The translations under genes and the position numbers were made by a program. The notes under the pieces were generated by a model. The model did not search any database and was not told where the DNA came from. It saw only the letters and a list, made by a program, of their open reading frames with translations. A stretch of DNA of 64,000 nt from Rheinheimera sp. 1928-s (lineage in GTDB: Bacteria; Pseudomonadota; Gammaproteobacteria; Enterobacterales; Alteromonadaceae): NCBI RefSeq assembly GCF_029269265.1, contig NZ_JARIXP010000001.1, positions 526,591-590,590 of the forward strand. Direction: 5' to 3'. Shown one piece after another: positions 11,454 to 16,132 of this stretch. Within the stretch, counting starts at the first letter, position 1; the number at the start of each line of letters is the position of its first letter.

Positions 11454-13607
11454 ATGTCGTTCAGGCCAGAGAAGCAGTTAAAAGTAGAAGAGTGGTGGTA
11501 TTTGCCGCAGCTGGATAAGCTGGCAAAGCTAAATGACAGAATGGAAGTCAGTGAAGTGGCTGATCTCGATCATTTGTGCCAAAGCGTATTAAACTTTTTC
11601 CTACTGAACTCAGGCCGTTTGATCAGTAAGGAAGAATTACTGAGAGAAGTCTGGCGAATGACCTCTGTCACTGATGGCCGTGTTGCCAGGGTGATCAGTA
11701 TTCTGCGTGATGTGTTGGGTGATGACGTAAAGTCGCCGCGTTATATTGAAACCATTCCAAAGCGCGGCTACCGCTTTATCGCTAAAGTGATTGAGCAGGA
11801 GCAACAAATCGCTCTGGCTTCCGATGGTCAAGATGAACCTCAAAGTGCAGCGGAACGCAAAGTCAACCGCATCTGGTGGGCAGCTCTCACTGTATCTACA
11901 TTGCTGTTAGGCCTGTTAGCCAGTTGGATCTTCTGGCCTTCCAGCTCAGCTGTGGAAGAGCAAGCCCCTTTTGTGAACTGGAGCCCGGTGTCTTCGCTGG
12001 ATGGGTTTGAGTATTATCCTGCTATTTCAAATGATAAAAACTTTCTGGTTTATAGTTATCAGAAAGATAAAAATCACTCTAATGTACTGATGCTGCAAAA
12101 TTTGCAGACGCATCAGACTCAACAATTAACAGATAGTGATTCCCACGACTTTGGTGCCAGTTTTCGGCCAGATGGCAAAGCTATTGCCTATCAGCGAATC
12201 AAATACAGAGAACTTTGTGAAATTCGCTTATTGAGTTTTGCCGAAGACTCTGCTCAGTCTGTTGTGGAAGATAAATTGCTCACTTCATGTGGCCTCGATG
12301 GTACTTCTACTCGCATCTCTTGGGCTCCTGATGGCAGGTCTTTATTATTCGGTAGCAATGAAAACAACGCCCAGCGTATGAGCATTTTTTCATTAGATAT
12401 AGCTTCAGGTACTAAAACGCAACTGGTTTTACCCAGCAACTCTGGCATAGGAGACTTTACTGCCCGTTACTCGCATGGTGGCGATAAAATAGCCTTTTTG
12501 CGGGATGTGGCCAGCAACTCAGTGCAAATTTGGATTATGGATTTAAATAGCAGAGAAACTTCGTTGTTGCTGCATCTAAAGCATAGTTATCCGGGAGATT
12601 TGGCTTGGAGTCATAACGATGAGTTTATTTATTACCCTGCCCGTAAATGGAATATTGAAAGTGTGAATATCAATACAGCTGAACAACAGACTGTGGCCTT
12701 AACCAATAATCATGCTTATGAAATTGCTTTAGGAGGCGACGGTGAGTTTTATGGCTCGATAGGGCGTTATGGCAATTATTATATTAAAAAATTTAATAAT
12801 CCTATAACGAACCCAACAGCCTCAGAAGAAATAGTATTTAAGTCCAATCGCAGCGAACGCCTGGTCGAGGCTAACCCTGCTGTAGACGGACCCACAGCAG
12901 CTGTTTCTATGCGAACTGGTTTGCCGCAAATCTGGTTATTTTATCCGAATGGCAGACAAGAGATGATTAGTCAGTTTGAAAGTTCTGTGGTGATTTCTGA
13001 TATGGAATTTTCAGGAGACGGCAAGCAGTTGTTGGTGCTGATTGATCAGGAGGTCTGGCTATTTAATTTAGCAGGCAAGTCTAAAAAAATCAGTGCAAAA
13101 GGTGAAGTGGTTAAAAATTTAAGCTGGGGTCAGCAAACCAATAACGTGTTTTATACGGTGAATAATAAAGGCAACTGGCAGGTTATGTCTTATCAGTTGG
13201 ATAAGGAGAGCCAAACTGAGGTTTATCTGAATGGTGTGGATTTATTTGTTCAAAGTAAAGGTAGTGATCACCAGTTAAAAAGACTTGCCTTGACAGGCGA
13301 TTACATTCTGTTCAGCGGTGAAGGGGAGGTGCTTTTAAACGCAAACACTCAAGATTTGATGTTTGCTGAGTCTTCTACTTTTGTACTTCGCGAAAACGGC
13401 ATTTATTTTTCAGCCGTTAATGATAAGCAACAAAGTCAGTTATTTTTTTACTCCTATAAAGAGAAAGCAATATACCCTTTAGATCTTGTTTCTGATTTAT
13501 ATTCGTCCAGATTCTCTTTAAGCCATGATGGCCAATATATTTATATGGTGATAGGTGAAAGTCAGGATTTGGATATTGCCAAATTTGAGTTAAAAACCAC
13601 AAATTAA
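11454..13607 (+). CDS. membrane-anchored ToxR/CadC-type transcriptional regulator with TolB/PD40-like periplasmic domain
   Basis: A 717-residue one-component regulator. Residues about 35-112 form an OmpR/ToxR-type winged helix (VLNFFLLNSGRLISKEELL, VARVISILRDVLGD, YIETIPKRGYRF). Residues 140-161 (IWWAALTVSTLLLGLLASWIF) are one membrane helix, and about 555 residues then lie in the periplasm. That part carries repeated beta-propeller strands of the PD40/WD40-like kind, for example FRPDGKAIAYQ and MRTGLPQIWLF. Two cysteines (RELCEIRL and LLTSCGLDG) could form a disulfide, and the second regulator at 14042 has an equivalent pair. The ligand is unknown. It is 17 bases after mrcB, so co-transcription with hrpB-mrcB is possible. 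Confidence 0.87.
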   Translation: MSFRPEKQLKVEEWWYLPQLDKLAKLNDRMEVSEVADLDHLCQSVLNFFLLNSGRLISKEELLREVWRMTSVTDGRVARVISILRDVLGDDVKSPRYIETIPKRGYRFIAKVIEQEQQIALASDGQDEPQSAAERKVNRIWWAALTVSTLLLGLLASWIFWPSSSAVEEQAPFVNWSPVSSLDGFEYYPAISNDKNFLVYSYQKDKNHSNVLMLQNLQTHQTQQLTDSDSHDFGASFRPDGKAIAYQRIKYRELCEIRLLSFAEDSAQSVVEDKLLTSCGLDGTSTRISWAPDGRSLLFGSNENNAQRMSIFSLDIASGTKTQLVLPSNSGIGDFTARYSHGGDKIAFLRDVASNSVQIWIMDLNSRETSLLLHLKHSYPGDLAWSHNDEFIYYPARKWNIESVNINTAEQQTVALTNNHAYEIALGGDGEFYGSIGRYGNYYIKKFNNPITNPTASEEIVFKSNRSERLVEANPAVDGPTAAVSMRTGLPQIWLFYPNGRQEMISQFESSVVISDMEFSGDGKQLLVLIDQEVWLFNLAGKSKKISAKGEVVKNLSWGQQTNNVFYTVNNKGNWQVMSYQLDKESQTEVYLNGVDLFVQSKGSDHQLKRLALTGDYILFSGEGEVLLNANTQDLMFAESSTFVLRENGIYFSAVNDKQQSQLFFYSYKEKAIYPLDLVSDLYSSRFSLSHDGQYIYMVIGESQDLDIAKFELKTTN

Positions 13608-13616
13608 TCATTAATT

Positions 13617-13682
13617 TATAATCATTTCATCAGTTTATGTTTTTTAATGGAACCGATACTTCAGTGGTCAAATTCAACCACT
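13617..13682 (+). promoter_or_regulatory. candidate promoter and short inverted repeat ahead of the CMNWPFC peptide gene
   Basis: A TATAAT hexamer lies at 13617-13622; no convincing -35 is present. AGTGGT (13663-13668) and ACCACT (13677-13682) form an inverted repeat in the leader, ending 18 bases before the peptide ATG at 13701. Either a protein operator or an RNA hairpin is possible. This is a motif-level guess only. Confidence 0.35.
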
Positions 13683-13700
13683 CAACATTGGAACTCTATT

Positions 13701-13976
13701 ATGAAACTGATTAAATTTATCGCTGCCGCTGCTTTAATTGCTTCAACTTCTTTAGTTTCTGGCGCTAACCCTGCGCCTGTTAGTGTGGCACCAGATACAA
13801 TAGCTGCTTGCATGAATTGGCCATTTTGCCGTGATGTGGAAATTTCTGAGCAAACAACAGAGGTGAAACAATATATTGCTTATTGCATGAACTGGCCATT
13901 CTGCCGTGATGTTGAAGTGACAGACCAGGTGCTGCCACAACAACTGCAAACAGAAACAGTTCGCAAAGCCGCATAA
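13701..13976 (+). CDS. small secreted peptide precursor with two CMNWPFCRDVE repeats, unknown function
   Basis: I do not recognise this gene. The frame is open from 13647, but ATG 13701 gives a clean signal peptide (MKLIKFIAAAALIASTSLVSG, about residues 1-21) and a 91-residue precursor. The mature part has two near-identical 18-residue units starting at residues 34 and 59, exactly 25 residues apart: I-A-[A/Y]-CMNWPFCRDVE-[I/V]-[S/T]-[E/D]-Q. Each unit has a C-x5-C pair (C37/C43 and C62/C68), which could close as a small loop. Third-base differences between the two DNA copies (for example AATTGG against AACTGG) suggest selection on the protein. It lies between two paralogous membrane regulators in the same direction, so a signalling or sensed-peptide role is tempting but unproven. 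Confidence 0.75.
   Translation: MKLIKFIAAAALIASTSLVSGANPAPVSVAPDTIAACMNWPFCRDVEISEQTTEVKQYIAYCMNWPFCRDVEVTDQVLPQQLQTETVRKAA
13809..13916 (+). repeat. tandem 75-base spaced repeat encoding CMNWPFCRDVE
   Basis: Two 33-base copies, at 13809-13841 and 13884-13916, encode the same eleven residues and differ only at synonymous positions. Their starts are 75 bases apart, which keeps the frame. They lie inside the small secreted peptide gene. Confidence 0.9.
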
Positions 13977-14005
13977 CTCCCGCTCTACTTTTCGCCTGAA
14001 TTGGT

Positions 14006-14036
14006 TATAATCCGCCTACTTGTTTATGTAGGCGGA
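14006..14036 (+). promoter_or_regulatory. -10 element and perfect 9-base inverted repeat at the start of the second regulator
   Basis: TATAAT at 14006-14011 is followed by TCCGCCTAC (14011-14019) and its perfect inverse GTAGGCGGA (14028-14036) around an eight-base spacer. The right arm holds the only purine-rich stretch able to act as a ribosome-binding site (GGCGGA), five bases before the ATG at 14042. As DNA it could be an operator straddling the transcription start. As RNA from an upstream promoter, for example read-through from the peptide gene, the hairpin would hide the ribosome-binding site. No T-run follows, so it is not an ordinary terminator. Confidence 0.5.
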
Positions 14037-14041
14037 TCCTT

Positions 14042-16132
14042 ATGCAACATACAGCAGACTACCTGACCTTTGGTCAATGGCGGTATCTGCGTACCATTGG
14101 TCAATTACAGCCTCTGTCAGCGTCCGCTGATCCGGAGGTGCTGACATTGGAACCCCGGTTGCATAAGCTGCTTAATTTTTTCCTCGATCATAAAGATTTG
14201 GTGGTCAGTCGCGAGCAAATTCTGTCCGGAGTCTGGGGAGAAGGGCTTGGATCGGATGAGTCGTTAACCCGAGCCATAGCTGCACTAAGGCGTGCTTTAC
14301 AAGACAGCAGAGTGGAACCGACTTATATCGCAACCTTGTCGAAAAAAGGCTACTGCTGGCTGGCTCCTGTGGCAGCGGTTGATTTGCCTCCAGTCAGTCA
14401 TACTGCAGAACCAGACACGGCGGCTCCTCTGGATTTGCTTAGCACTCAACACGCCATAGACAGCTGGCACAGTGGTAAAAAGAGTAAACTAAAACGTATT
14501 CGCTATATCTGGTTCAGTACCTTAGTCTTGTTACTTTTTAGTCTGAGTTTTGCTTTGCTGGTCATTAAAATGAACGAAAAAGCAACCTTACCCCGTTACT
14601 TGCAAGTCACGCCTGTCAGCGCTTTGGACGGTAAAGAGCAAACGCCATTATTATCCAGTGATCAGTCTTTATTGCTATTTCAACATCAGTTGCCCAATGA
14701 ATCCAATTGGCGCTGGGTGGCGCAACAATTACCTTCGATGCAATCCCGCCGTGATGAGCAAACTTTTCAGCAGCTTTCTCAGCCTCATTGGGACAAGGCA
14801 AATCAGATTATATTCCGCGCTCAGCAGCAACAGGATTGTGTGTTCTGGCGTAAAACTGTTAAACCCCAGTTTTCGGCCGCTACTCCGTTGTTTTCCTGCC
14901 ATCAGTTTATCGCCGCAGGGCAAGCCATAACGGCCGATGGCCTCTATTGGCTGGATTTAGATCCGGCTACCGGACAAAGCCAACTCTGGCTGTGGCAGCA
15001 GGACAGCTCGCAACGCTTGTTGATGCAGTTTCCAGCCTGGTGGCGCGGTGTCAGCCATTTGATTGTCAGAGATAAAACCGCTTATGCCTTAGCTCAGTTA
15101 GGTTACAGTCGTTCTTCGCTGATCGAACTTGATTTGACAGATTCGGACTGGAAACTTATTGCGGACTTTGACTTCTCGGCGAATCAATTAACCTGGTGGG
15201 GGGAGCATGACTTGTTGGTGAATAAGTCTGCTCACCAGCTTCAGGTGTTGTCGCTGCGTACAGGCAACAGCAGGGTCTTTGGTGAAATGACCTTCAATCT
15301 GGCCGATAGTTCTGTATGGAAACAGTCTTTACTGGCAGTTTATCCTGCGCAAGCTGTGACGGATTTACGTCAGTTGCAATGGCAGGAGCAAAGCAGTCAT
15401 ATAGTGGCTCTGCCTTTTGTGGAAAGTAATAGATCCGAATCTTTATTACTGGTGCTACAGGACCAGTATTTCTTTGTATCAGACCGCTCAGGTTTACCCC
15501 AACTGTGGCGTTCGGACGGGCAAAACACACAGCAAATCAGCCATTTTAAAACACAGTTGGCGATTCAGCAGCTGTTATGGTTTGGCGGCAAATTGGTGCT
15601 ATTGATTGATAGACAACTCTTTGAGTATTCATCAGCGCAAGATGAGTTGTTGCCTTTGACCGAAATATTGCCAGGCAGTGAACGTTTTGTCGTCTGCAAT
15701 GACGCTTTGTACTGGACGTCCTATGGTCAGAAAGGCTGGGCATTACATCAGCTAGAGCAAGCTAAGGTGAGTCAACTGTTGACGGATATAGTGAATGTGC
15801 AGTGCGGACCGGATCAAAGCCTGGTTGTGCAGCAGCAGGATTCATCTTATCTGAAACAATGGCAACAAGGACAGCTTATGACACTGCCAGTGCAAATCAA
15901 CTGGCGGACAACGCCAGCAGAGGCATGGGCCAGCACTGAAACCGGTTTGTATTGGTTATCTGACAAGGGATCAGAGTTAAATTATTACGACTGGAATACT
16001 AAACAGCAGCAACAATGGCCGCTGTCAGAAGCGGCTCATGCCTTGATAGCAGGGAAGGGCGCTTTGTTTACAGAGCAATTCAGGGTTCAGGACACAGACA
16101 TTGTCTGGCTGCATCCTGAGCCTGATTTGTGA
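14042..16132 (+). CDS. second membrane-anchored ToxR/CadC-type regulator, paralogue of the 11454 gene
   Basis: A 696-residue one-component regulator with an N-terminal winged helix (about 35-110: LLNFFLDHKDLVVSREQIL, LTRAIAALRRALQDSR, YIATLSKKGYCW), one membrane helix at about 154-176, and a long periplasmic domain. The periplasmic part shares landmarks with the first regulator: TPVSALDG against SPVSSLDG just after the membrane, and DRSGLPQLW against MRTGLPQIW further on. A cysteine pair (QQDCVFW and LFSCHQF) is also equivalent. It therefore looks like an ancient duplicate rather than a recent one. It follows the CMNWPFC peptide gene by 65 bases, with an inverted repeat in between. The signal sensed is unknown. 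Confidence 0.85.
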   Translation: MQHTADYLTFGQWRYLRTIGQLQPLSASADPEVLTLEPRLHKLLNFFLDHKDLVVSREQILSGVWGEGLGSDESLTRAIAALRRALQDSRVEPTYIATLSKKGYCWLAPVAAVDLPPVSHTAEPDTAAPLDLLSTQHAIDSWHSGKKSKLKRIRYIWFSTLVLLLFSLSFALLVIKMNEKATLPRYLQVTPVSALDGKEQTPLLSSDQSLLLFQHQLPNESNWRWVAQQLPSMQSRRDEQTFQQLSQPHWDKANQIIFRAQQQQDCVFWRKTVKPQFSAATPLFSCHQFIAAGQAITADGLYWLDLDPATGQSQLWLWQQDSSQRLLMQFPAWWRGVSHLIVRDKTAYALAQLGYSRSSLIELDLTDSDWKLIADFDFSANQLTWWGEHDLLVNKSAHQLQVLSLRTGNSRVFGEMTFNLADSSVWKQSLLAVYPAQAVTDLRQLQWQEQSSHIVALPFVESNRSESLLLVLQDQYFFVSDRSGLPQLWRSDGQNTQQISHFKTQLAIQQLLWFGGKLVLLIDRQLFEYSSAQDELLPLTEILPGSERFVVCNDALYWTSYGQKGWALHQLEQAKVSQLLTDIVNVQCGPDQSLVVQQQDSSYLKQWQQGQLMTLPVQINWRTTPAEAWASTETGLYWLSDKGSELNYYDWNTKQQQQWPLSEAAHALIAGKGALFTEQFRVQDTDIVWLHPEPDL

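Follow-up and report, generated by a model that had tools for sequence, protein, structure and literature searches.

A ring peptide encoded between two ToxR/CadC-type membrane regulators of Rheinheimera and its relatives: a candidate peptide-sensing pair

What is a gene for a small, ring-bearing peptide doing between two membrane regulators that resemble each other? The question was raised by a sequence-only reading of a stretch of 64,000 nucleotides from Rheinheimera sp. 1928-s (G000:C1:526591-590590; hereafter, the window), which described a regulator, a gene for a 91-residue exported peptide and a second regulator in one direction, and which suggested that they form a peptide-sensing or peptide-controlled system. 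Its coordinates, strand and gene order are correct; the first regulator (Reg1), the peptide gene and the second regulator (Reg2) follow one another on the + strand. The gene mrcB (penicillin-binding protein 1B) precedes Reg1, a hemL-like gene (identified by eye) follows Reg2 on the opposite strand, and the open reading frames of the window include no gene besides the peptide gene between the two regulators.

Reg1 (11454..13607, + strand) is a ToxR/CadC-type regulator of 717 amino acids with a winged helix-turn-helix at residues 44-108, a single hydrophobic stretch at about residues 138-160 (read by eye) and a PD40/TolB-like periplasmic part. Reg2 (14042..16132, + strand) is its paralogue of 696 amino acids, with the winged helix-turn-helix at residues 34-105. 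The winged helices that had been claimed are present, as PF00486 is above the Pfam cut-off in each protein, and a hydrophobic stretch (by eye) follows it in both. The periplasmic landmarks of the earlier reading can also be found, as SPVSSLDG and RTGLPQIW in Reg1 and TPVSALDG and RSGLPQLW in Reg2, and the cysteine pair that it noted in both regulators is borne out by invariant cysteines in 46 sequences of each: Cys255/279 in Reg1, and two pairs, Cys266/286 and Cys552/588, in Reg2. Profiles of both regulators match the DNA-binding domains of CadC and ToxR in the PDB. The Reg1 profile also matches TolB, and these DNA-binding domains are the only matches of the Reg2 profile. PD40 is above the Pfam cut-off in Reg1 only, with no match in Reg2 at E values up to 1.

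The two regulators align as homologues across 661 columns (18% identity, E 3.9e-47), and they are sister groups with a support of 90 in a quick tree of 109 rows that contains long branches, so they are old duplicates, in agreement with the first reading. Because Reg2 aligns with Reg1 over all of these columns, we infer that it too is a propeller protein. The Reg1 and Reg2 groups are each joined in the tree by one protein of the genome G041; one of these two proteins (L059) adjoins an mrcB-like gene and the other (L057) a hemL-like gene, both recognized by eye.

Searching with the peptide sequence located it at the equivalent position in other genomes of the genus. When the named genome collection was scanned with a Reg1 alignment, 78 loci came up, 47 of them with a close Reg1; the other 31 (L108 and L110-L139) contain none but distant regulators, as judged from score or match, and were left out, as was L067, in which the contig ends inside the locus. 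The 46 readable loci that remain, together with the window and L035, L039, L040 and L056, make up a set of 51 loci from 50 genomes, since L056 and L087 are two versions in one metagenome-derived genome. The named records among them belong to Rheinheimera, Arsukibacterium, Alkalimonas and unclassified Gammaproteobacteria. In all 51, a small frame of 58-97 amino acids lies between the same two regulators. This arrangement is not due to chance, because it holds in 51 of 51 loci.

Two of the loci deserve a separate comment. In Rheinheimera nanhaiensis (L102) there is an insertion after the peptide gene, and the Reg2-like frame begins 5275 nucleotides after Reg1; the insert of about 5 kb (L102:8694-13101) contains several frames of unknown function. 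The metagenome-derived genome G020 has two versions of the locus, with the rings CDMMFPFC (L056) and CPYFVFPYC (L060, on the same contig as L087), which are probably a mixture of strains.

The peptide precursor of the window (13701..13976, + strand) has 91 amino acids with a signal-peptide-like start at about residues 1-22. A longer alternative frame of 109 amino acids begins at 13647, and the start that is conserved among the loci is 13701. The two CMNWPFCRDVE units that had been described are both present, and each contains a ring sequence, CMNWPFC (13809..13829 and 13884..13904, + strand); the second ring has the amino acids of the first and differs from it by two synonymous codons. A simple signal-peptide rule finds a signal-peptide-like start in all 51 peptides, and after residue 22 cysteines occur only in pairs in every one of them. 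The 51 peptides have 60 rings, nine peptides having two. The cysteines are separated by five residues in 53 of the 60 rings, by six in 6 and by seven in 1. A proline stands two positions before the second cysteine in 58 of 60, with a threonine in its place in L096 and L102, and one of F, W, Y, H or V stands three positions before that cysteine in 59 of 60. Outside the ring, the peptides can barely be aligned among loci.

The nine twin-ring precursors display an unusual pattern. In 9 of 9 precursors the seven amino acids of one ring are also those of the other, and the rings of the nine precursors all differ from one another between genomes. Yet 22 of the 63 ring codon pairs differ synonymously, spread over 8 of the 9 precursors, and over units of eleven codons there are 31 synonymous differences and 2 amino-acid differences, both of the latter in L068. 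Recent gene conversion by itself should have equalized the codons too; what is seen points to selection that keeps the two copies equal within a precursor, for a ring that varies from genome to genome. Precursors with two rings are found in Alkalimonas (4 of 5 loci) and in the R. soli group, and both have single-ring relatives; therefore, twin rings presumably arose or were lost more than once.

The window peptide has no Pfam match above the cut-off (a beta-defensin match is sub-threshold at E 0.33), no match in NCBIfam or PADLOC and only weak PHROG matches, the best at E 0.0093. An L090 peptide, taken without its first eight residues, has no PHROG match, and a plasmid search gave no match. 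A defense, phage or plasmid gene was rejected on these results. Many of the single-ring peptides of L069-L109 have a K/D-rich tail that ends in LA, VA or AV, which is perhaps a protease mark.

The peptide gene appears to have its own control region. A 20-bp element with the consensus TTTAT-N7-TCATC-[GA]-[AG]-[GT] lies 4-27 nucleotides past the Reg1 stop codon and 55-86 nucleotides before the peptide start. In the window it is a predicted operator, TTTATAATCATTTCATCAGT, an 11-bp direct repeat at 13615..13634 (+ strand), 66 nucleotides upstream of the peptide start, and nothing else in the window scores above 11 bits. Every one of the 51 loci has a best site of between 14 and 27 bits, and the sum is 1095 bits versus -235 (sd 31) in shuffles, for a motif that was fitted to these same sequences. 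The half-sites are 11 bp apart, the spacing at which PhoB/OmpR-type winged helices would be expected to bind a direct repeat. Full TTYRT-N6-TTYRT pairs have a spacing of 11 in 39 of 51 loci and a spacing of 8 in 11. In the gaps of a wider class of loci described below, pairs at spacing 11 occur in 5 of 16, where 0.2 are expected from shuffles and spacings 10 and 15 reach 3. The operator pattern has 8 matches genome-wide versus 1 in a reversed control. One element (L141, 21.7 bits) is upstream of a frame that resembles an acyl-CoA dehydrogenase; those of L144 and L147 have 13.1 and 11.7 bits. We do not claim a regulon from this pattern, since the scored sites are three of the seven matches besides the locus.

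Further features surround the peptide gene. Its leader (13640-13700) frequently has a more stable fold than mononucleotide shuffles of it (mean z -1.38, with z below -1 in 30 of 51 loci), and in some species there is a hairpin near the ribosome-binding site. A known RNA element was rejected, as the single Rfam match has an E value of 0.79, far below the gathering score. Just before the Reg2 start codon there is a TATAAT with an inverted repeat, CCGCCTAC...GTAGGCGG, directly after it (14006..14035, + strand), an arrangement present in 51 of 51 loci. Five or six of the outer six positions of this repeat pair in 51 of 51 loci (mean 5.78 versus 3.99 in shuffles), and paired changes on both arms are seen between species. 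Since the left arm would be situated no later than a normal transcription start, the repeat may keep Reg2 from being translated from read-through RNA, or it may be an operator.

Comparisons between close species bear on which regulator may be the partner of the peptide. Between the window and R. soli (L066), mrcB and the DNA-binding part of Reg1 both stand at 0.99 and hemL at 1.00; the periplasmic part of Reg2 stands at 0.97 and that of Reg1 at 0.85. The change in Reg1 is concentrated in two segments, residues 236-325 (12159..12428, + strand, including Cys255 and Cys279) and residues 556-690 (13119..13523, + strand), the limits of which were chosen after viewing eight pairs. The divergence includes synonymous sites, which are at or near saturation in 2 of 4 pairs, and this suggests that old alleles were exchanged in these segments, rather than that they undergo fast point change. 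Among 14 mutual-nearest-neighbor pairs, 11 of them close, Reg1 236-325 exceeds the periplasmic part of Reg2 in synonymous difference in 11 of the 11 close pairs and Reg1 556-690 does so in 9 of 11; the two exceptional pairs are the two with identical rings.

In Reg1 236-325, L066 (ring CYNWPFC) and L099 (ring CYNWPYC) are 96% alike, and each is just 77-80% like its own sister (the window and L035, respectively). Judged by these alignments, Reg1 allele types cross the species tree. The species with CPNWP-type rings are also 91-94% like L066 in this segment, and thus allele and ring are not one to one.

Over 861 pairs from 42 genomes, the ring region and the periplasmic part of Reg1 have a partial correlation of 0.53 beyond mrcB and hemL, and in the 68 close pairs it is 0.56; for Reg2 the values are 0.24 and 0.11, and in all of these the pairs are non-independent. 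Permutation tests were made in three clades of 8, 14 and 8 genomes over 13 segments, with uncorrected p values. The ring is associated with Reg1 556-690 in all three (r 0.55, 0.43 and 0.45; p 0.003, 0.006 and 0.015, uncorrected), with partial values on mrcB of 0.54, 0.33 and 0.46. For Reg1 236-325, r is 0.40, 0.44 and -0.01, that is, there is no link in the third clade, and in the second clade all of the other Reg1 segments also have r values of 0.28-0.47 with the ring. The partial values for the Reg2 segments range from -0.20 to 0.30, three of them with an uncorrected p of about 0.03 in the second clade.

Proximity is a point against reading these values as co-variation, since the second Reg1 segment is close to the peptide gene. 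Residues 1-110 of Reg2 are as near to that gene as the Reg1 end and have partial values of 0.04, -0.20 and 0.05, but they are the conserved DNA-binding part. With the 11 independent close pairs, change in the Reg1 segment and in the peptide has a Spearman correlation of 0.47 (p 0.14, not significant), which is no higher than the values for Reg2 (0.55) or mrcB (0.53). At synonymous sites the link between Reg1 and the ring is clear in one clade for 236-325 (r 0.60, p 0.002) and only 0.31 (p 0.06) for 556-690; it tracks general relatedness in the second clade and is absent in the third. Taken together, the hypervariable segments of Reg1 are highly divergent mosaics, which follow the ring type in part, and Reg2 does so less, several of the tests being weak or mixed. 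With moderate confidence, we regard Reg1 rather than Reg2 as the likelier partner of the ring.

Such propeller regulators are frequent in related genomes, 55 of 118 having a match to the Reg1 profile at E values up to 1e-25. A profile of 24 single-ring peptides (A5) was run on 196 genomes, and all of its strong hits (E below 1e-7) are at the locus. The next hits are a CAPYPIC peptide in G050 and, more weakly, in G093, beside another propeller regulator. Six weak hits were read (L165, L167, L168, L170, L173 and L174), and L166, L169, L171, L172 and L175 were left out.

We also looked at 62 other regulator loci that were selected on the basis of the regulator, irrespective of any peptide; these were 58 stretches, a selection from the rows that matched the Reg1 profile, plus L057, L058, L059 and L061. 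A ring peptide that passes our filter lies within 600 nucleotides of the regulator in 6 of the 62 (L183, L186, L196, L198, L202 and L203), on the opposite strand in three of these (L186, L202 and L203), and none lies within that distance in the other 56. L236 has an exported two-cysteine frame without the P motif. At the named loci the filter picks up 44 frames close to the regulators, and at more than 600 nucleotides from such regulators one frame passes it in 588 kb; that frame is in L180, a stretch that was itself chosen through a peptide match. It is a CSLFPLVC frame with a signal-like start (L180:5765-5968) and neighbors that look phage-like by eye, and the stretch fetched contains no propeller regulator. 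Around G058 (59 genomes), the L203 regulator has only itself as a match at E values up to 1e-60.

Two further profiles extended the pairing. A profile of six peptides (A6) had nine hits in 295 genomes of the order, and the five loci that were read include three new rings, each beside a propeller regulator. A profile of eight peptides (A7) was applied to 394 genomes from the order and to 369 sampled from the class. There is a ring frame in 15 of its 46 loci, 5 already in the profile and 10 new, in counts that leave out two further listed places without a locus. All 15 ring frames adjoin a propeller regulator, 3' of it and on the same strand. The new rings are beside a propeller regulator in 10 of 10 cases versus 0 of 31 for the ring-less loci, and none of the 16 loci from the class sample has a ring. 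Chance neighbors were rejected as an explanation on this comparison and on the arrangement in the 51 loci. The rings of this wider group, which include CEPFPEC, CEPYPEC, CEPFPDC and variants, are more alike than those of the Rheinheimera locus; the pairing spans families f1, f4, f6, f7 and f13 of the order, with nearby peptides of the type C-x-x-[FYH]-P-x-C. In the regulator tree, 7 of the 8 other sampled peptide-bearing regulators fall in the half with Reg1 and Reg2 (support 92). The pair of the window belongs to a wider class of propeller regulator plus ring peptide.

The sequence-only reading had stated that the link would be chance if homologues of the peptide lay mostly away from such regulators, or if the regulators were widely present without it. 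The strong A5 hits at the locus and the 15 of 15 A7 ring loci go against the former, with L180 as the exception. The latter is true in part, as neither of the G041 orthologues, L059 and L057, which are at separate places, adjoins a ring peptide, and most of the other propeller-regulator loci lack one too, but the Reg1-Reg2 pair has the peptide in every one of the 51 loci.

These observations suggest that the ring peptide and its membrane regulators are an undescribed peptide-sensing pair. The system that the earlier reading had in mind is supported in part: the conserved linkage fits it, and peptide binding and transcription control are its inferred parts. We consider it fairly probable that this is a ligand-receptor pair in which an exported ring is sensed by the Reg1 propeller, with the peptide gene as a target. 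Its signal-peptide-like start would bring about export of the peptide, and in the oxidizing periplasm disulfides would close one or two small rings. To judge from the co-variation, the ring would then be recognized by the propeller of the adjacent Reg1. The propeller of TolB binds peptides, and this property and the TolB-like Reg1 profile were both counted in favor of such recognition. Reg1, perhaps with its paralogue Reg2 as a second regulator, would bind the 11-bp direct repeats before the peptide gene, an element that is conserved, and so the Reg1-peptide pair could report the peptide level in a feedback loop. Ring and receptor segments would diversify and be exchanged between species like a specificity pair. 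The rather uniform rings of the wider class, the three opposite-strand peptides and the many regulator loci that lack a ring peptide weigh against this reading. A more far-reaching proposal is that the peptide is a Gram-negative pheromone, a disulfide-ring signal with a ToxR/CadC-type beta-propeller protein as both receptor and transcription factor, with species-specific types of signal and receptor that recombination exchanges, and relatives in at least five families of one order; we offer this tentatively and are somewhat doubtful of it.

Other explanations were considered. The peptide might be a constant structural partner that stabilizes Reg1 in the periplasm, in the manner of ToxS with ToxR or VtrC with VtrA, possibly anchored by an uncleaved N-terminal segment, and not a signal. 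The peptide gene adjoins Reg1 in the same direction and co-varies with it in part, the N-terminal hydrophobic segment could be an anchor as well as a cleaved signal, and ToxR-type factors with a fast-evolving adjacent periplasmic partner are described in PMC9214523. A product of 58-97 amino acids with little conserved but a short ring, however, is too short for a lipocalin-like barrel, its gene is separate from Reg1, without overlap, and is preceded by an element of its own, and a subunit would hardly account for identical tandem rings; we think this unlikely. It is less likely still that the peptide is an exported effector, e.g., an antibacterial peptide, which the regulators control and do not sense. 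A small, probably exported, fast-changing and ring-bearing product behind an operator-like element would suit an effector, but the window has no further gene between the regulators, Pfam, NCBIfam and PADLOC gave no match above their cut-offs, and neither the identity of tandem rings nor the partial tracking of the Reg1 sensor part would be expected.

Finally, the constant cysteine pair in a small exported protein, together with the invariant pair in Reg1, might mean that the peptide monitors disulfide formation, protease activity or export stress in the periplasm and is read by the propeller. The species-specific rings with identical tandem copies and the mosaic Reg1 alleles would be left unexplained by such a sensor, and we consider it very improbable. 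The ligand-receptor reading has some practical consequences. Where a ring peptide is encoded next door to a propeller regulator, as it is in several families, it is a testable ligand for that part of these regulators, and at the Rheinheimera locus, rings and receptors come in a series of natural types with which specificity could be mapped.

How does the locus compare with known systems? The open-licence literature, preprints excluded, contains no description that we could find of such a pair, of five of the ring sequences or of a ligand for this type of propeller regulator. Like other ToxR/CadC-type regulators, the two proteins have an N-terminal PF00486 winged helix, a hydrophobic stretch and a C-terminal part that is expected to be periplasmic; what sets Reg1 apart is the PD40/TolB-like character of its C-terminal part. 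The words propeller, PD40, WD40 and Alteromonad do not occur in the main text of a census (PMC10269533) in a word search. In the co-component systems VtrA/VtrC, ToxR/ToxS and TcpP/TcpH, the partner is lipocalin-like and fast-evolving, and its gene often overlaps that of the regulator (PMC9214523). The likeness to these systems is a membrane regulator with an adjacently encoded periplasmic partner and fast evolution; the difference is that the partner here is a non-overlapping ring peptide of 58-97 amino acids with its own element and sometimes two identical rings. The partner gene is adjacent and in the same direction in 51 of 51 core loci, and by its length alone, which includes the signal-like start, the peptide is not an eight-strand lipocalin-like partner.

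Peptide signals that are encoded in the genome and have a membrane receptor of their own are familiar from Gram-positive bacteria, and to our knowledge, they are scarcely known in Gram-negative bacteria. The agr and ComC/ComD systems are peptide pheromone systems of the former. The locus resembles them in having a small exported peptide, a ring (as in agr), a variable ligand and sensor part, and specificity types. It differs from them in that the candidate receptor is a DNA-binding membrane protein and not a histidine kinase, and in that the signal is of the Sec type. No histidine kinase with a response regulator is near the locus (window genes by eye, three proteins by Pfam), and no processing or export gene was seen adjoining the peptide gene in the window. 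A further comparison is with TolB, the propeller of which binds colicin and Pal peptides. TolB differs from Reg1 in that it is soluble in the periplasm and has no DNA-binding part; its likeness to the proposed pair is a propeller of related sequence, which in TolB binds peptide.
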